Below, one piece after another: positions 3,403-44,030 of a stretch of DNA of 44,030 nt; position 1 is the first letter of the stretch, and each line of letters begins with the position of its first letter. Both the position numbers and the translations under genes were made by a program. The stretch comes from Armatimonadota bacterium (GTDB lineage: Bacteria; Armatimonadota; UBA5829; DTLH01). Below the pieces are notes generated by a model. It was not told the DNA's origin and did not search any database. It was given only the letters and a program-made list of their open reading frames with translations. The stretch is from positions 1 through 44,030 of the forward strand of contig JAKPFN010000099.1 in the NCBI GenBank assembly GCA_029551395.1, in the 5' to 3' direction.

Positions 3403-4055
3403 TGCCAGTGACTCGTGGTGAAATAAAAGGCAAGGTTCTTCGTTTGCTCATGAAAACAGCAAACTATACAGGCGCATACGAGGACGATACGATCAATGAC
3501 GCCATCCAGGAAGCTGTTGATTTTGTAGCCACCGATATGTTTGACGCCAATGAGGGCTGGCTAACCAAAGTTAGGTATATCGACACGACAGCTGGACAGG
3601 TCACTATCCCTATTCCTGAGGGCGTAGCGATGATCCAGCAGGTCAGATACCTCTTTGGGCCTAACTACATCCCTATGGACTACAATGACGCCAGCAAGGA
3701 AGCCCAGTACGCTGACGACTCAGGCGCTCGGCAATGGGCGAGTCAGTACCGGATTATTGACAACGCTTTGTACTTCAATCCTCCCCTAGCTGAGGGTGGC
3801 GAGCGTTATCTCATGCTTGAGTGCATGGAGTATCCCAAGAGACTACAACAGGATACGGACTTTCTCGAATCCCAGTTTGACAATTGCATGCAACACTTTA
3901 TTAAGTATAGATCAGCAACAATCCTTGGCGCAGGCGTTGAGAAGTTCGCTATGCCGTGGGCTGGTCTCGAAAAAGACTGGTACATGAAGACCAAGGAGAT
4001 AATCGTCAAGCGCAACCGTCAGTCGGTGCCTGTGCGAGACTTTTTGGGGTACTAA
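3402..4055 (+). CDS. Head-tail adaptor-like protein
   Basis: A 217-residue protein. The N-terminal helical part (GEIKGKVLRLL, DDTINDAIQEAVDFV) is followed by a beta-rich middle (VTIPIPEGVAMIQQVRYLF) and a helical C-terminus. This pattern matches podovirus adaptor or head-completion proteins that sit under the portal and extend the DNA channel. It is placed directly after terminase with a TAATG overlap and hands over to the next gene with another TAATG. The family call is from pattern memory, not an alignment. Confidence 0.6.
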   Translation: MPVTRGEIKGKVLRLLMKTANYTGAYEDDTINDAIQEAVDFVATDMFDANEGWLTKVRYIDTTAGQVTIPIPEGVAMIQQVRYLFGPNYIPMDYNDASKEAQYADDSGARQWASQYRIIDNALYFNPPLAEGGERYLMLECMEYPKRLQQDTDFLESQFDNCMQHFIKYRSATILGAGVEKFAMPWAGLEKDWYMKTKEIIVKRNRQSVPVRDFLGY

Positions 4056-4527: not shown

Positions 4528-5223
4528 ATGTCTATCCCAAGCTACGTTATCCAGGCTAGTCCTCTCAGCAAGCTATTCATGGCAGGTTGGGGAGAAAAGC
4601 TAGAAGCCGATCCAGAAAAGATCTTCTCTGATACTCCTTTTGAAGTCATGATCCCTAAGACCAACGGAGCGATCAAGCTCACGCACAATAAGCCTGTGCA
4701 TATCACCAAGCTAGAACCGCCCCAGCCTTCTAGGATCAAAGACGAGTACATGGTCGACGATCTTGAGGGGCTTGTATTGTGGTTGATAGGCGGCGAGGAC
4801 GGTCAGCGCAGTGAAGAGACAGATATCTATGGTGTTGTCGGCCTGGCTATCGACATGGACGTATCAGGCGCTCTAGCTGACGTTGCTATGTTTGATCCAG
4901 ACAGCAAAGACGACAAAGCCAAGGCTGCTAAAAAGTTTTCTGATATCCAGAACGATCTTGTGAAACAAACCAAGTCAGCCATCAAGGAAGCTCGTGACAA
5001 GGCTGATTGGCGCGTTAAAAGAGCTATGCGGAACACGCATATAAACCTAATGAAGCAGTACGAGACGCTAAAGACGGAAGGGCGGGGCGTTTATGCCCCC
5101 TCTGTGGCTGAGGCCATTGGCGCCTATGTGCTAAAATCAGAGATCGACGCATCATCGGCGAACCGTCGCAAAATGGTCGAGATGCTCGCCAACACCATGA
5201 CCGAAACGTCCATCTTGAGGTAA
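4528..5223 (+). CDS. Structural-cluster protein, unknown function
   Basis: A 231-residue protein. The first 100 residues look beta-rich with Pro-containing turns. The second half is Lys/Ala/Asp-rich helix (KDDKAKAAKKFSDIQNDLV). It has an extended leader AGGAGCCGCCGC before the ATG, a motif seen before several other genes in this window. It lies two bases before the large tail gene. A role in joining the adaptor to the tail is possible, but nothing in the sequence proves it. Confidence 0.6.
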   Translation: MSIPSYVIQASPLSKLFMAGWGEKLEADPEKIFSDTPFEVMIPKTNGAIKLTHNKPVHITKLEPPQPSRIKDEYMVDDLEGLVLWLIGGEDGQRSEETDIYGVVGLAIDMDVSGALADVAMFDPDSKDDKAKAAKKFSDIQNDLVKQTKSAIKEARDKADWRVKRAMRNTHINLMKQYETLKTEGRGVYAPSVAEAIGAYVLKSEIDASSANRRKMVEMLANTMTETSILR

Positions 5224-5225
5224 CT

Positions 5226-8200
5226 ATGGCTAACGACTTGATTAAGCACTCGGCTGGCGTGACAGAAAGTGGGATTGACGTGTTCAATCCTGATTTCAAT
5301 CCGAGCTTGGTCCTGTCGCCAAACAGTTACAACCTCATGACCGGCATCAATCGCGGCACGGGACCCAGGTACGGCATGAGCCCGATACCTGGGCATTCTA
5401 ACCTAGACACCACTGACTCAAGCATTGGGCGTGGGATTCGTTCAGCTGAATTGACTACTGGCGACTCGTTTGATGTTTTCTTGAAGAGAAGAAAATTCCT
5501 TGGCGTTCTCCCGGTCACTCTTTTTGAGATCATCGACAGTGTTAGCTCTTTTGCCAATAACGCCCAGAAGTCTGTTCTGTTCTGGCTTATTACGGATTAT
5601 GACGGGGTACAGAATACTCTGACATTTACGCCCAATGCAGGTTTTCAGGATGGATCTTCAAGTTACAACCAATTTATCTACACAGCCCAGAACCGCTATG
5701 GGTTTTATAATCCTATTTGGGCATGGCCAGCAGATAATGGCTCGGAGCCTGCTCGTGTAAATTTCAACAGCCCGCTGTTTCGTAGGATTGGGAACGCCAA
5801 GCCTACATACCCAGCAGCAGTAAGCGCTGCGAACCTTGTTAAGGACGTTTTTAAGTTTAAAGACTCTCTTTATTATTCTTCCAATGCAGTCATTTCTGTT
5901 TCTGGCAGGAAGTGGCCTATGAAATGGCTCATAGGAAGCAAGCTGAGCAATGGGGATTCCACACACTCTGCCATTCCCAACTTTGTGTTTTATTTTTACT
6001 CTGGAACCAATGCATCAACTGCAGGGGTTTGTCCTGCTTTTAACCTTGCGAATTACAAGAAAACCCAAAGGACGATAAGCCTCTATAACCTGTACGCCAA
6101 CCAGTTAGCGGCGCTGTACACATATTCCAACTACAGCGTCGACGAGACGACGTATCCAAAAATATTAAACCAGAACGACACATCCCCCAGCATCGTTTTA
6201 AACACTACAGCCACAAGCCAGACTTTACCAGACACGGGCGGCGCGTATGCCCCGGCAAGCGTTACAAGAGTCTTATTGAATGACAACGAACTAGAATGTG
6301 ACAGCTCTTACAGAATAGCGCTCGTCGCGGCTGGCAAACCATACGCCTACGTCGTTCAGGATTGGGAACGGGATTTATCCACAAGGGTTACCCAGGCCGT
6401 TGATTTGACCAACAGGACGCATGTCCCAAGGGTTGTTAGCACGACAATCGATGGTGGTGGGCCAACGGCGTATAAGGAGCTCAGCTACGAAGCTACTAGC
6501 TGCTTTCAAAGGTGGCCAACCTATGACGGCTCAACAGCTCTGCCAACAAACGCAGGAACCGCACCCACATCGCCTTTGTACCATGTGACTACAGGGGCAG
6601 CTGGTAGTGGGGTATTGCGCTCTAATACGACGTATGAATTTACTTTTTCCTTTTTTGACAAACAGTACGGCATCGAGAGCAACGTAGGCAAACCAGCTAA
6701 ATTTCTTACTGGCACAGAGGACTTTGTTGCCTTGTCTTTAAAGAGAGATCAGAAATTCGCTGGCGTTTATGTGCAGAATGCCATGCCTCTCGATAGCTGT
6801 ATCGTAGATGACAAATATTTCGACGTTACAGACGGAACAAACACATTTCGCAATATGATGGCAAACTTCTTAGAGCTGAGGTTCTACTACCGTCCATATG
6901 GCTCTTTTGAGTGGCTTCCAGCTCTTTACATGGACTTTGCCCAATGGCTTGGCTGGCCTAACTATCGGATCATTTGGTCATGTACTGGCGACATCGCGGC
7001 CCTGCCTGGCGGTCAGCCTGGTGGGTTTATCGACTACAGCCAGCTTCCGCCTGATACCTATGATTGCGTCGTTAACTTTAAAAACAGGGCTTTTTGGCTA
7101 TCAAAGAACAACCTCGTGTTTAGCTTGGCCAATAACCCTTTTGCTTATCCGCTTCGCAACTCCGCCCCCGCCCAAGGTGGGTATCGTGGTGCTATTGTTC
7201 ACACTTACAGGGGGCAATCGAGCCAAGAGTCCAGGATCGTCATATTTGGCGATAAGGAAAACTACATTGGCAAGTTTACTGGCGAGTACATCCAGCAGCC
7301 TGTGCAGGTATCTGCTGACACAGTAGCGTCATATGACCTCGACGGTTCTGACTTCCGTATTGAGGCATGGACATCAGTTACGGCTTTCTCCCATAGGTCG
7401 GCTGTCGTAGCGGACGGGGATCTTTATTGGTGGGGTCCACAGGGTATCTATAAAGATGATGGGGTCAACAATCCCACGAAAGTATCTGGCAACATGGAGC
7501 CGGATATTTTTACTCTTTATGAGAAAACCAAAACTGATGAAATTCATTGCATCTATGATGAGACCACAAAGCACATCATTTGGTTCTATCCCCCTGCCAG
7601 CAATAGCACGATTACGCACTTACTGACTCTTGAGGTATCAACCGGGCAAATATTCCTAGATAGATTAGATTGTAAGGTCGATTGGGCTCAAAGGGTCGAT
7701 ATTAAGGACGTTTTCAAGTCAGGCATTGGCGGCGTGCGCACAATGATCGGCGCTAGAGAAACCGGCTCTAGCACTATTCAACGCGGTTATTATTTTGACC
7801 AGATCAACAGAGCAGGCGACTGGGCACCAAAAAAAGAGCTTCTTGTCAAGTCAGTATCGGCTGGACCCACAACGCTCGAAAGGGTTCTGGCCCTTGACTC
7901 CGGGGTCGATGCCACCAATTTTGCCACAATTGCTATCGGCGACTACATAACTATCCATCAGTTTAAAAATTACACAACGCTGTCGACTGGGGATGAGATG
8001 ATCAGCCTTGTCACAGGTATCGATACAGGCGCCAAAACGCTCACTATCAAGCTACCTGATGACGGCGTGCTTCCTACTGCCTCACTCGCCCAAAGGTTTT
8101 ATTTCCCTATCTGGCACGCAGCTGCAGAAGGCGACGGGCTCAACGGTATCCCGTGGGTATGGGAAACGAAATATTGGATGCCTCAGGGCGTGAACTACCA

Positions 8201-24605: not shown

Positions 24606-24797
24606 ATGCTTACATCTAAAGCAGCGGCAAAGACCGAAAAGATCGACGAGAACCGTACTAGGTATTATTACCTAAACAGGGACGATTCTAAAGAGCTGTG
24701 GGACGTCCCAGGCTTTTTCGCCGTAGTAGTCAAAGAGGAGCCAGGGCTGTATGTTATTGATTTGTATAAGCAACCCTTTTTATGGTGGACAATATGA
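24606..24797 (+). CDS. Small protein upstream of papain-like peptidase
   Basis: A 63-residue protein I do not recognise. It is Lys/Glu-rich at the start, then has strands with aromatic residues (TRYYYLNRDDS, PGFFAVVV). No SD is visible before the ATG. The stop sits in an ATGA overlap with the peptidase start, so it may be translated together with it. It could be a chaperone or inhibitor of that peptidase, which is guesswork. Confidence 0.4.
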   Translation: MLTSKAAAKTEKIDENRTRYYYLNRDDSKELWDVPGFFAVVVKEEPGLYVIDLYKQPFLWWTI

Positions 24798-25642
24798 AAA
24801 AGCTTCTCCTTTTACTGTTTGCGCTTTTGTCCTGCAAAGCCGTCGCGGACGATATCGCCCCGAGCGGACCTACCGGCCTAGTTTTTCCAGACAATTGGCA
24901 GTCGATGGCGTCCTGGGACAACACGCAGCCGACCGCAACCCTTCCAGCGAGGTTTAACTGGAACGACTTCATGCGACTGCAGCCGATCCGCAATCAAGGC
25001 TCGTGCGGTTCCTGCTGGGCGTTCTCGGTCACGGCTGTAACAGAGTCGCTACACAGGATCCTGTTTCCCATGCTTTTTCCTATCGTCGACCTAGCCGAGC
25101 AGACACTCGTTAGCACCTGCGAGCGTGGCGGGGATTGTGGCGGTGGATTCTTTGACGCCTTTGACTACATCAAGAACTCAGGGCTGCCAAAAGAAGCTGA
25201 TGATCCGTACAGAGCTCGCAACTCCTCATGCCAATCAGGACTCACACCATTCGCCAAGATTACCGGCTGGTCATATGTAGGCGACGAAAACAGAGGCCCT
25301 ACGATCGAGCAGATCAAGCAAGCAGTCTATGACCATGGGCCTGTTAGCATCGACATCAACGGGAGCCTGTCCAATACTGCCTCGGTCATAAAGTCCTGTG
25401 GCTCAACCATGACAAACCATATGGTCAACGTGGAGGGTTGGGTCGATGATCCAGACTATGCAGACTACGGCGGGGGATATTGGATTATCCGCAACTCCTG
25501 GGGGAAAGACTGGGGAGACCACGGCTATTTTAAGATCGTGTACAAATCTCGTGGTGGCTCTAAATGCAATGGCGCAGGGAGCACAGCAGCCTACGCCATC
25601 ATGAACAACGTACAGAATATCCGCGAATACCTGGGCCTATAG
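24794..25642 (+). CDS. Secreted papain-like cysteine peptidase (C1A)
   Basis: A 282-residue endopeptidase of the papain family. All active-site parts are present: QGSCGSCWAFS (oxyanion Gln68, nucleophile Cys74), LAEQTLVSTC, DCGGG, NHMVNVEGW (His209), and IIRNSWGKDWGDHGYF (Asn234). The first 18 residues (KKLLLLLFALLSCKAVA) form a signal peptide. A Cys in LLSC could even make it a lipoprotein. Only about 30 residues precede the mature domain, so the usual long inhibitory propeptide is missing. I start at 24794 because of the ATGA overlap. A frame start at 24782 adds four residues. C1A peptidases are rare in phages, so a cargo or host-interaction role is likely. Confidence 0.9.
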   Translation: MKKLLLLLFALLSCKAVADDIAPSGPTGLVFPDNWQSMASWDNTQPTATLPARFNWNDFMRLQPIRNQGSCGSCWAFSVTAVTESLHRILFPMLFPIVDLAEQTLVSTCERGGDCGGGFFDAFDYIKNSGLPKEADDPYRARNSSCQSGLTPFAKITGWSYVGDENRGPTIEQIKQAVYDHGPVSIDINGSLSNTASVIKSCGSTMTNHMVNVEGWVDDPDYADYGGGYWIIRNSWGKDWGDHGYFKIVYKSRGGSKCNGAGSTAAYAIMNNVQNIREYLGL

Positions 25643-39037: not shown

Positions 39038-40066
39038 ATGAGAATTATCGTGCTATTCCTGGCCATTGTGGCGGCTTGCTTAAAATGCACCCCCACCGGT
39101 GACCATAACCAGCAACTAGAAGAGTCATGGTCACAGACAACAAAGCGAGATACTTCCATGTGGGTCAACCAAGGGGACCTGAGACTATTCGACGTTGTCA
39201 TGGTGGATTCAGGCCCAGACCGTCTAATGTCAAATCTGATAGGCGGGACCGTTCCCCAGGCCTCTGAGTACCCTGCTACCTTCGCCTCGCGTCAGAGTGG
39301 CTCTGGCTGCACGGCAACCCTAATCGCTGAGGACGTCCTCCAATTGGCTGCCCATTGCGTGGGTAACGGCCGCACTGCTCAAATAACAAGCAACGGCCAG
39401 TCATACACAGGCACCTGTACCCATGCCCCTGGCTACCAGGGAGATGCCACGGCTGACTGGGCTCTGTGCAAAATGTCAACAGTCGTCGATAGAACGTGGT
39501 ACGAAAAAGTCCTCCAGGATCCCACCAAGATCGCTGTCGGTGGCAAAGTTACCCTCGCAGGAGCAGGTTGCACCCAGCCTGGCGGTAATGATGGCGCATT
39601 CGGCACGCTAAGAGTCGGGCAAGCCACCATCACTCAAGTACCCACTTCAGACAATGACACCGTCACAAAGGGCGGCGCGGCACTTTGCTTCGGTGATTCT
39701 GGCGGGTCCGCCTTCTACGAAGAAGTCGGCGGGCAAAGGTGGGTCATGGGCGTCAACTCTCGGGGAGATATCCAGTCTACCAGCTATTTAGCTTCCGTGT
39801 TCACAGCTAGTGCGAAAAATTTCTACAAAGCTTGGGCACAGACCAACAATGCTAAAATTTGTGGCATCGATCCGGCTGCTGTGAAATGCCAAGGGAGCAC
39901 AGTCGACCCCACACCTCCATTGCCACCACAATGCAAGGTCGCTCTGGACCTATTCACAAAATGTCTTTACGACATCCCACGGCTTGCTATCGCGCAGCCA
40001 GCCCAATGCCGGAAAGCATATGCTGACCTTTTCGCTTGCGAAGAAGCAGCCGAGCTCGCACAATAG
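39038..40066 (+). CDS. Secreted trypsin-fold serine peptidase, lipoprotein
   Basis: A 342-residue peptidase of family S1. The catalytic triad is intact: AAHCV (His106), DWALCKM (Asp140) and GDSGGSAF (Ser221). The mature domain begins near LIGGTVPQASEYP, as in activated chymotrypsin-like enzymes. The N-terminus (IIVLFLAIVAACLKC) is a lipoprotein signal with lipobox VAAC. The residue six before Ser221, where trypsin has Asp, is Ala, so Lys/Arg specificity is not expected. A Cys-containing helical tail (residues of about 295-342) follows a TPPLPP linker. It has its own promoter and terminator, typical of a cargo gene. Confidence 0.9.
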   Translation: MRIIVLFLAIVAACLKCTPTGDHNQQLEESWSQTTKRDTSMWVNQGDLRLFDVVMVDSGPDRLMSNLIGGTVPQASEYPATFASRQSGSGCTATLIAEDVLQLAAHCVGNGRTAQITSNGQSYTGTCTHAPGYQGDATADWALCKMSTVVDRTWYEKVLQDPTKIAVGGKVTLAGAGCTQPGGNDGAFGTLRVGQATITQVPTSDNDTVTKGGAALCFGDSGGSAFYEEVGGQRWVMGVNSRGDIQSTSYLASVFTASAKNFYKAWAQTNNAKICGIDPAAVKCQGSTVDPTPPLPPQCKVALDLFTKCLYDIPRLAIAQPAQCRKAYADLFACEEAAELAQ

Positions 40067-40891: not shown

Positions 40892-42175
40892 ATGTCAGGA
40901 GCTACCTTTAGCGATGTTGACAGCTACGGCCTTCTAAAGGAGCTGTACGCTGACGATGTTCAATTCCAAGAGCACATTCTCTCGTCATTCTATAACTTTC
41001 TACGGAAAGCCTCCAAAGGGGAAGTAGAATTTGACGGCAAGTATTGGAACCAAGGCGTTGTGTTCCAACTCAACGAAAGCTACGGAGCTAAAAACGACTC
41101 CGAGCGTTTGCCTGATTCTGACTTCCAAAAAGGCGTTTTCGCGAAATATCGCCCGAAACTCATGTACTCAAGCATCGAGATGACGACCTTCGCGGCAACC
41201 CGTGGACACAAAAACGGGCGCCCCAACGGCAAGTACCTCGAAGACACGATCAAGGGCACCTTGCTCTCTTTCATGTCCAACCTCGACTCCGATGCACTCG
41301 GCAACGGTCGCGGTTACCGCGCAACGATCTTGACTGCAACTCCTGCAGCAACCTCTTTCACCGTTGACTACTCGACGCGCCTTCGTCCTGGCATGAAGCT
41401 GGACTGGTACGACTCGACCTTGGCAACCAAACGCGGCTCGATCAAGATCGCGCTTCGTGGCGTTGACCGCATGAACAAAACGGTTTACATCGACACGACT
41501 TTTGGCACAGGCGCAGTCCCGGCTGGCGCAGTGGCAGACGACGTCCTCGTTGTTTACGGCGCTCTCGCAGCTGGCGAGCCTTCTGACGGTCGTCATATGG
41601 GCGGTTACGCTCGTATCGTCGACAACACGCTTTCTTTGGGCTCTTTGGCCAGCTCGACCTACGCAGCTTGGGCAGCAACCAACATCAACGCAGGTTTGGC
41701 TAACCCCAACCAAGAGATCCTTCAGCAACACTGGGATGCTATGGGCATCATCTCTGGCGTAGATCCTAACCGCATGGCTTTCAACCAAGCCTGGAAACGT
41801 GGATACCTCAACGGTTTCCTCAACCAACGCCGGTTTACGTCTAACAACTTCGACACTGGCGCATCCAGCCTCAGCTGGTCACCTGTGAAAATGGGCAAAG
41901 ACGACAGCGGCAAAAAAGTCTCTGGCATCGAGATGCTCGAAGACAAAAACATGGACCCCACCGCAGTCTATATCTGGAACCATGACGCGCTGTGCATCGC
42001 CACGGACTACGGCGATCAACCGCACTTGGCAGACGAAGACGGCTCTGAATTCCGCTTCCGTCGTAACTACGACTCCATGAACGGATTCTTCCGCTTCTGG
42101 GCAAACGTTGTTGTTAAACAACGAAACGCGGTCGGACAGATCTACAACTTCACACCTGCATCAGGCGTAATCTAA
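40892..42175 (+). CDS. Major capsid protein
   Basis: A 427-residue protein with the pattern of HK97-fold coat proteins: an N-terminal helix (YGLLKELYADDVQFQEHILS), GKYWNQGVVFQLNESYG with the spine-like NLDSDALGNGRG region after, a beta-rich middle, and C-terminal strands (GFFRFWANVVVKQRNAVG). Codon use is more uniform than in neighbours (frequent GGC, GCA and TTC), as expected for an abundant protein. AGAGG precedes the ATG and an intrinsic hairpin follows the stop. No protease is adjacent. The family is inferred, not aligned. Confidence 0.75.
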   Translation: MSGATFSDVDSYGLLKELYADDVQFQEHILSSFYNFLRKASKGEVEFDGKYWNQGVVFQLNESYGAKNDSERLPDSDFQKGVFAKYRPKLMYSSIEMTTFAATRGHKNGRPNGKYLEDTIKGTLLSFMSNLDSDALGNGRGYRATILTATPAATSFTVDYSTRLRPGMKLDWYDSTLATKRGSIKIALRGVDRMNKTVYIDTTFGTGAVPAGAVADDVLVVYGALAAGEPSDGRHMGGYARIVDNTLSLGSLASSTYAAWAATNINAGLANPNQEILQQHWDAMGIISGVDPNRMAFNQAWKRGYLNGFLNQRRFTSNNFDTGASSLSWSPVKMGKDDSGKKVSGIEMLEDKNMDPTAVYIWNHDALCIATDYGDQPHLADEDGSEFRFRRNYDSMNGFFRFWANVVVKQRNAVGQIYNFTPASGVI

Positions 42176-42226: not shown

Positions 42227-42514
42227 ATGATTGACGATCAAATGCTAATCCAAGCTGTGCGCGAGCGCCTCATGGATGAGCTCAAAAAAAAGAGCGACGC
42301 CCAATCTATTGTCAATAACGTCTATGGTTCACCCATGGCGGGGGGTCAGGGGGTCATGGGCGCCCTTGGCGGCGAGGGTGGTCAAGGCTCTCCTGATCCT
42401 CGTGAGGACGGCGACTACTTCGTTGACATCATGCGCGAAAACCTTGATCCCAACGATCCCAGCAAAGGCTGGAAGAAAAACGTTCATCGCTATAAAAAAA
42501 AAGTGACACCCTAG
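42227..42514 (+). CDS. Small virion-cluster protein, short form
   Basis: A 95-residue product read without a shift. The N-terminus is helical (DDQMLIQAVRERLMDELKKK), followed by a Gly-rich spacer (GGQGVMGALGGEGGQGS) and an acidic DYFVDIMRENLDPND segment. It ends two residues after a Lys run that is coded by nine A. A longer product is likely; see the next entry. It follows the major capsid gene with a weak terminator between. Confidence 0.6.
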   Translation: MIDDQMLIQAVRERLMDELKKKSDAQSIVNNVYGSPMAGGQGVMGALGGEGGQGSPDPREDGDYFVDIMRENLDPNDPSKGWKKNVHRYKKKVTP

Positions 42515-42744
42515 ATCCCCCTCCTGATGGCGTTGAGCGCCAACGCCTTACTCGTGAGCAATACCTACAAGAAGCCCTTGACGACGTGGACCCCATGAAA
42601 TATGCGGGCGAAGGCTGGTTTGCGACCGAGGAATATCCAACTGCAGATGGTATCGACAACCCATACACAGCTGGGGACGTAGGGCACGAGGAAGAATACT
42701 ACCCAGGCCCAAGGCGCAAGGGTAGTCGGAGGGTTACGCCGTGA
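42494..42744 (+). CDS. -1 frameshift extension of the post-capsid protein
   Basis: In the -1 frame after the A9 run (42494-42502), an open frame encodes a coherent protein: SDTLDPPPDGVERQRLTREQ, YLQEALDDVDPMKYAGEGWF, ATEEYPTADGIDNPYTAGD, and a basic end. A stop in that frame lies just before the A-run, and no good start exists within it until GTG/ATG near its middle. It ends at TGA 42742-42744, forming a GTGA overlap with the next gene. Shifting by -1 on the A-run would give a 172-residue product. A base-count error in the A-run is the alternative. Confidence 0.6.
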
Positions 42745-43250
42745 GTTTGGCTAATTTCATTAAATACCTGTCAAAGACATCCCCTAAATTGGCTGAAGAT
42801 GCCAACAAAGTCGCTAGGTACAACACTTTGCGGTCTCTTGAGCGGTCTCTGCCTCTTGAAAACGGCCCGTTCAAGGAAGAGTTAAACAAGATGATCCCAA
42901 AAGGGCATTACGGGATAACTGAAAGCATCCATCCAAAGGCCGACCCAAGAGATATCAATGACCTCAATAAAGCGTTCACAATCAAACTGGACGACAACCA
43001 AAGAGCAAAAGAGTGGGCTCAGATAGGTCAGCCCACCATTCAGGAGATGGACCAATTTTCAGAAGATTTGGCAACTCCTCTTGGGGATAATTTGGGGATG
43101 ACAGCCGATGAGACCGAGAACACACTCAGAAAACTTCAGAAGATTTACGGGTATGTCATGCACAGGCACCCGGATTACTCTGACGCCATGATAGAAAATA
43201 AAATCCCAGGCTTCACTAAATGGATGGAAAAGAAGAAACTAGGACAATAG
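42741..43250 (+). CDS. Head-cluster protein with MSL-type N-terminus
   Basis: A 169-residue helical protein starting at GTG in a GTGA overlap with the frameshifted ORF. It begins MSLANFIKYL, sharing a motif with the next two genes (MSLAKYLMKK and MSLSKWMLKA). The middle holds KADPRDINDLNKAFTIKLDD and DETENTLRKLQKIYGYVM. No family was recognised. The shared start suggests that all three are targeted to the same place. Confidence 0.6.
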   Translation: MSLANFIKYLSKTSPKLAEDANKVARYNTLRSLERSLPLENGPFKEELNKMIPKGHYGITESIHPKADPRDINDLNKAFTIKLDDNQRAKEWAQIGQPTIQEMDQFSEDLATPLGDNLGMTADETENTLRKLQKIYGYVMHRHPDYSDAMIENKIPGFTKWMEKKKLGQ

Positions 43251-43461: not shown

Positions 43462-43749
43462 ATGTCATTATCAAAATGGATGCTCAAGGCTGGGAAGAAA
43501 CTTGAAGAAGGCGCAATCAAAGCCAGCTCGAAGGCTACTGACGCAGCCATCAAGGGTGCTGAAAAAGCTGGTAAGGGCATCGACAAGGCTGCCAAGGCGA
43601 CCTCTAAAGGCGTCGACAAAGGTTTCAAAGCAGCCAAAGAGAACAAGGGCAAGGTAGGTCTGGCAGCTGGTGGAGCTGCAGGATACGCAGCCGGAAGCTC
43701 AGGCGACGACGACAAGAAGAAGAAAAAACGCCCTTACATGGAAGACTAA
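43462..43749 (+). CDS. Lys/Ala-rich protein with MSL-type N-terminus
   Basis: A 95-residue protein beginning MSLSKWMLKAGKK. The centre is a run of Lys/Ala-rich repeats (KAGKGIDKAAKATSKGVDKG) and a Gly/Ala patch (GLAAGGAAGYAAGSSG), with DDDKKKKK near the end. AAGGAG precedes the ATG. The basic helix could bind packaged DNA. This is inference. Confidence 0.55.
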   Translation: MSLSKWMLKAGKKLEEGAIKASSKATDAAIKGAEKAGKGIDKAAKATSKGVDKGFKAAKENKGKVGLAAGGAAGYAAGSSGDDDKKKKKRPYMED

Positions 43750-43750
43750 C

Positions 43751-44030
43751 ATGGACGGTCTGAAAGCATATCAGGACGACCCTGAGAAATCTGCCATCAT
43801 CGGCGCTTTGGGCGGCGGTGCAGTGGGCGCGATCCCGGGAATCAAGAACATGATTCAAGAGTACCGGAAGGCTCAGGGGCCTTTGCTTGACGACGGCAAT
43901 GTGTTGTCCTTGCGGGCGAGGAAGCCCAATCTTGGCAAATACCTCGCTCAGAATCCTGTACTCATGAAAGAAGCACTCAGGGATAGCGCCAAGGGTGCTT
44001 TGCTTGGGTCAGGCAAGGCTGCAGTGGTCG
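43751..44030 (+). CDS. Glycine-zipper protein, cut by window end
   Basis: Ninety-three codons, open at the right end. Near residues 14-30 is a Gly-zipper (SAIIGALGGGAVGAIPG), then a charged helix and a second Ala/Gly part (DSAKGALLGSGKAAVV) at the edge. It is the same class as the proteins at 10-252 and 233-802, so the two ends of the window may belong to one cluster. No SD is close before the ATG. Confidence 0.6.
   Translation, partial: MDGLKAYQDDPEKSAIIGALGGGAVGAIPGIKNMIQEYRKAQGPLLDDGNVLSLRARKPNLGKYLAQNPVLMKEALRDSAKGALLGSGKAAVV

Follow-up and report, generated by a model that had tools for sequence, protein, structure and literature searches.

A conserved adenine run behind a phage capsid gene as a probable site of programmed frameshifting, the favoured route being transcriptional slippage

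In a little-known group of phages, a small gene located directly downstream of the major capsid gene carries a run of nine adenines (A9) where, with high probability, programmed frameshifting takes place through either the polymerase or the ribosome. The more specific reading, in which transcriptional slippage is the main route, is one that we hold with some preference but much less firmly. The window, namely the whole stretch of DNA that was analysed (44,030 bases), is an entire contig (C154) of a 165-contig, 3.58-Mb bin, and Pfam and PHROG searches also identified genes for the large terminase, an SU10-type adaptor and the portal on it. Most passes over the A9 would produce a short protein of 95 aa; in a fraction of them the run would be read as one A longer, leading into the -1 frame and to a 172-aa fusion with an extension of 80 residues. 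RNA polymerase would add this A (transcriptional slippage), and ribosomal slippage on A AAA AAA may contribute to it. That slippage occurs at the A9, as well as its rate and level, is something that we infer from the DNA sequence. The features concerned are the following:

40892..42175, plus strand: major capsid (head) protein gene (PHROG 14242, E = 2.7e-33; 52-72% identical in relatives)
42227-42514, plus strand: zero-frame ORF of 95 aa, which would supply the N-terminus of the proposed 172-aa fusion
42493-42495, plus strand: TAA of the -1 frame, which abuts the A9 and bars entry into this frame from upstream
42494-42502, plus strand: A9, putative slip site, AAA AAA AAA in the zero frame and then G
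42496-42744, plus strand: -1-frame extension, 82 codons, 80 aa past two lysines
42741..43250, plus strand: following gene, encoding 169 aa from a GTG start; Pfam and PHROG searches gave no match

The preliminary description of this DNA had reported a zero-frame ORF stopping just past nine adenines, a stop closing the -1 frame just 5' of the run, and an 80-residue protein in that frame ending in a GTGA overlap, and we recovered each of these elements. The zero-frame ORF ends as TAT AAA AAA AAA GTG ACA CCC TAG, with the A9 three codons 5' of the stop and the TAG terminating the ORF at 42514; the -1-frame TAA lies at 42493-42495; and the -1 frame is open to 42744, shows coding constraint (see below) and has a TGA that overlaps the GTG (42741) of the next gene as GTGA. 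The predicted fusion junction consists of lysines followed by SDTLDPPPDGVER, and the conserved core of the extension reads ER..LT.E.....DPMKYAGEGWFATEEY. Two products near the capsid, which could be made in a set ratio, had been proposed; as regards the position of the gene, which adjoins the major capsid gene, this is correct. The A9 is the sole run of at least nine A or at least nine T in the 44,030-base contig. Another long run, A8 at 42284-42291, is found near the start of the zero-frame gene; past it the -1 frame stops after 11 codons and the +1 frame is open for 73 codons to 42506, and this run is probably due to chance.

Relatives were searched by scanning viral contigs and genome contigs, and by blastn and tblastn in phage records. 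Homologues of the zero-frame ORF were found in eight other contigs: the phage record collection provided one, MW202458 (L004), and the viral contigs seven more. A search of 291 genomes of the phylum of the bin gave a match only in the bin's own genome, and the scans of genome contigs returned nothing beyond five weak terminase matches. With the window included, the searches gave in total five phages with the A-run and four with a split form, counts that leave out eight weak terminase matches (L018-L020 and L021-L025; 23-31% identity). The four relatives with the A-run are:

L003: A9 at 4739, capsid 67% identical to that of the window; short form of 105 and predicted fusion of 200 residues
L004 (MW202458): A10 at 322, capsid 63% identical; 110 and 180 residues
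L006: A10 at 3985, capsid 61% identical; 110 and 181 residues
L015: A10 at 5807, capsid 72% identical; 118 and 211 residues

The same layout is kept in all five phages (window, L003, L004, L006 and L015; runs of 9, 9, 10, 10 and 10 A) while the flanking sequence differs. In each of them a -1-frame stop abuts the run (TAA in four, TGA in one), the zero-frame stop follows 1-6 codons 3' of it, and a shared core is encoded in the -1 frame, clearest as DPMKYAGEGWFATEEYARP together with the preceding T.EE stretch; over the alignments, the -1-frame proteins of the near relatives are 44-54% identical to that of the window. The claim of a -1 frameshift at the A-run is thus strengthened, since the run, the -1 relation and the homologous downstream frame are maintained in five of five near relatives, the window included. 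In the public record of MW202458 the zero-frame ORF (L004 7-339) is unannotated, and the annotated gene, which begins at an ATG at 351, covers just the downstream part. In L003 an HNH-endonuclease-like ORF of 208 aa (4970-5596, minus strand, recognized by eye) lies directly past the -1 frame, a place where the window has none.

This conservation also bears on two other explanations. Long A-runs are error-prone and the window phage is represented by one assembly, such that the true gene might be a single fused ORF broken by a homopolymer sequencing or assembly error. Nevertheless, five contigs from different sources show the same -1 relation, for which random frames would give (1/3)^5, about 0.004, and a stop abuts the run in every -1 frame; the retention of the A-run layout in contigs from different sources makes such an error very unlikely. 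We attribute an equally small likelihood to phase variation, in which the phage population would vary in the run length of its DNA and thereby switch between the short and the fused form. Homopolymers are hypermutable and this alternative is discussed in a paper on recoding (PMC3711429), but every one of the five consensus sequences is out of frame in the same way, whereas the in-frame state would be expected sometimes.

The -1 frame is under coding constraint in all five A-run phages, as judged from the distribution of substitutions in their sequences: over the ten pairs that they form, differences per codon at positions 1, 2 and 3 amount to 0.29, 0.23 and 0.62 in the -1 frame and to 0.44, 0.34 and 0.68 in the zero-frame part, the extension thus appearing, if anything, the better conserved of the two. 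In agreement with the earlier claim that the first 30 codons of the -1 frame contain no good start, they are devoid of ATG, GTG and TTG in the window, with the earliest GTG at codon index 30 and the earliest ATG at 33. In the window and in L015, where the first start codons occur at codon 30 and codon 90, respectively, the conserved core begins 5' of every ATG, GTG or TTG, so that an ordinary start cannot make the extension in these two phages. Possible -1-frame starts exist at codon 24 in L003, codon 9 in L004 and codon 7 in L006, and re-initiation could therefore add a separate short product in these three. As a general explanation, coupled re-initiation after the zero-frame stop would yield a separate downstream protein, with the A-run and its G's serving only as a ribosome-binding site. 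It is in line with the ATG overlapping the stop in four of four distant relatives, with the AAGGGG found 8 nt 5' of the in-frame ATG in L006, and with the ATG at codon 9 in L004, which is the start annotated by the depositors. We regard it as improbable given that conservation begins well 5' of the first starts in the window and L015 and that the window and L003 have no G-rich motif 3' of the run.

How easily such runs might arise by chance differs among these phages. In three of the four relatives (19-20 kb examined in each) there is a single run of at least nine A, at the homologous spot, and in the AT-richer L015, 15.9 kb contain five such runs, including one at the homologous spot. The absence of other runs of this length from the DNA examined of four of the five phages speaks for the frameshift reading. 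When the protein was kept fixed and codons were redrawn according to the usage of each phage, the probability of at least nine A at the site was 0.10, 0.23, 0.53, 0.23 and 0.40, with a product of 0.0012 under the assumptions that the five phages are independent and that the lysines are fixed. That this product is not extreme is a point against the frameshift reading. In a host control, no A or T run of at least 8 was found in 95,609 bases of the bin, drawn from 33 partly overlapping loci, which shows only that long A/T runs are rare in the bin loci. The dnaX locus of the bin (L067, 4 kb) had no A-run over seven. The contig may not belong to the host of the bin.

Programmed frameshifting being the preferred reading, its route has to be considered. 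DNA alone cannot tell a slip of the polymerase from one of the ribosome since the fusion protein is the same either way. A -1 shift of the ribosome at A AAA AAA(G) of an unslipped mRNA, as in dnaX of E. coli or in phage tail-chaperone genes, would generate the same 172-aa fusion, and we consider it a possible but clearly less likely main route. Several features speak for it: all five runs contain an X XXY YYZ heptamer (A AAA AAA/AAG), a known ribosomal slip motif, with tandem zero-frame AAA codons, the run of L006 ending in AAG; the zero-frame stop comes soon 3' of the run; Shine-Dalgarno-like (AAGG-type) motifs occur 10-13 nt 5' of the run in L004 and L006, and weakly in L015; modest downstream stems are predicted in the window (z -2.9) and L003 (z -2.6), these being the best of five windows tried; and ribosomal frameshifting is described as well established in phage coat and tail genes (PMC5009743). 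Against this, when folds and Shine-Dalgarno-like motifs were examined, no 3' stem and no upstream Shine-Dalgarno was common to the five sites, the stems of the window and L003 being weak or separated from the run by some 20 nt or more. The last codon of the run is AAA, not AAG, at four of the five sites, and in E. coli, A_AAA_AAA is reported to shift far less readily than A_AAA_AAG (PMC5009743). Furthermore, seven A's would be enough for the ribosome, whereas all five runs have nine or ten.

RNA-polymerase slippage appears more likely than ribosomal -1 slippage because the runs are pure stretches of nine to ten A and no stimulator of the stem or Shine-Dalgarno type is common to the five sites. 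All five are A homopolymers of nine or more whose length is conserved. According to a review, bacterial RNA polymerase slips efficiently at runs of nine A's or T's (PMC5009743), and conserved A9 runs have been taken as a sign of purposeful slippage (PMC5009743, PMC3711429, PMC1088944). The bin encodes tRNA-Lys genes for both UUU and CUU (30 of 41 tRNA places examined), and Thermus thermophilus is likewise described as having both kinds (PMC5009743). Several known systems share some features with the window gene and differ from it in others. Translation of phage lambda gpG/gpGT likewise shifts to the -1 frame shortly before a small ORF ends and enters an overlapping ORF, within a late operon. 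The lambda pair is encoded between the tail tube and tape measure genes and uses a G-type slippery site. By contrast, the window gene lies past the capsid gene, and no known family matched its sequence. The dnaX gene of T. thermophilus, for which transcriptional slippage at A9 is reported, likewise has nine sense-strand A's and two products with a common N-terminus (PMC1088944); it is a different gene (tau/gamma), and slippage leads there to the shorter product whereas in the window gene it would give the longer one. Closer in outcome are tssM1 of Citrobacter rodentium, which has an A11 run (PMC4256274), and Shigella mxiE/spa13, where a stop likewise follows a long homopolymer of A or T and slippage produces a C-terminally extended protein (PMC4256274, PMC5009743). 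These are, however, bacterial secretion-system genes, and tssM1 has been proven by mass spectrometry of cDNA. Gene 10A/10B of phages T7 and T3 and the coat proteins of Listeria phages are also head-region genes with a short and an extended form (PMC5009743), but in these the coat gene itself is frameshifted, by the ribosome, while here it is a separate small gene after it, with A9 or A10. As to polymerase slippage in phages, it has been suggested, without being assigned, for N4-like Vibrio phages in which long homopolymers were noted (PMC3670811) and also for a methyltransferase of Campylobacter phages (PMC2853527).

The preliminary description had proposed to look for fused or split forms among relatives, and split forms occur in all four of the more distant relatives that we found (L008, L010, L011 and L012; capsid 52-55% identical). 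They have no A-run and encode the two parts as distinct genes; the downstream gene has an ATG of its own, which overlaps the stop of the upstream gene. As L011 is nearly a copy of L012, and L010 resembles both closely, this set represents about two lineages. The capsid-protein tree separates the A-run from the split forms by a single branch (support 76/94; recovered in 96% of 200 bootstrap trees), although the very long outgroup branch makes the root unsure. The separate overlapping genes of the distant relatives suggest that the two parts probably act together, in one complex. Arthrobacter Jasmine-type phages (capsid 24% identical) were also considered; by the annotation of the record, what follows their capsid gene is a 'tail spike' and not the frameshift gene.

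Since the gene directly follows the major capsid gene and precedes the packaging genes, we propose that the pair probably represents a minor protein of the head or of head assembly, in a short and an extended form. Neither part (P0001 and P0002) matched Pfam, or PHROGs at E 0.1. A PHROG scan of all 8 members per alignment gave chance-level matches only (lowest E 0.13 with the upstream part, 0.025 with the downstream one), and PDB sequence profiles gave, for the two parts, one match at E 0.99 and none. AlphaFold models were poor, with a mean pLDDT of 55 (extension) and 64 (short protein); in the short protein, the better parts form an N-terminal helix and a hairpin. A tail assembly chaperone similar to lambda G/GT was discarded as a candidate: there was no PHROG match at E 0.1, and the gene follows the capsid gene.

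In tailed phages, frameshifting is documented mostly for tail chaperones and coat proteins and by ribosomal slippage. Our literature search found no report of this gene or of phage ctKpZ937, and none in which polymerase slippage was demonstrated for a phage head gene. The kind of slip mechanism is known; the gene family is new. The most inclusive proposal, which we advance tentatively and to which we accord slightly less than even probability, is a head-module family in which polymerase slippage at a conserved A9/A10 sets the ratio of short to extended head protein, with a sister lineage splitting the pair by ordinary starts. If true, the expression of a single protein pair would have switched in nature between fusion by slippage and a split form. 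Comparison of the A-run phages with their split sisters is also a clean natural test case for the way in which phages set the ratio between two probable head proteins. Should the slip be transcriptional, a phage virion-region gene would join the reported list of IS elements, dnaX and secretion genes. The MW202458 record, in which the zero-frame ORF is missing from the annotation, further exposes an annotation gap.

Several side observations were made. An exact terminal overlap of 15-200 bases was not found at the contig ends; an ORF at 43670-44030 runs off the contig end, and similar glycine-rich small proteins are encoded at 1-802, a likeness that would suit a circular map. Two protease-like genes are present, a phage-borne trypsin-like serine protease at 39038-40066 (Pfam Trypsin, E = 2.4e-13), with a signal-peptide-like start by eye, and a papain-like protease sequence, also recognized by eye, at 24782-25642. 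Finally, the small genes at 42741, 43260 and 43462 are three in a row with alike starts (MSLANFIKYLSK, MSLAKYLMKKG and MSLSKWMLKAGKK), and small genes 3' of the frameshift gene in L003, L006, L008, L010 and L012 have loosely similar starts by eye; these like N-termini could be a common tag, for example for uptake into the head.
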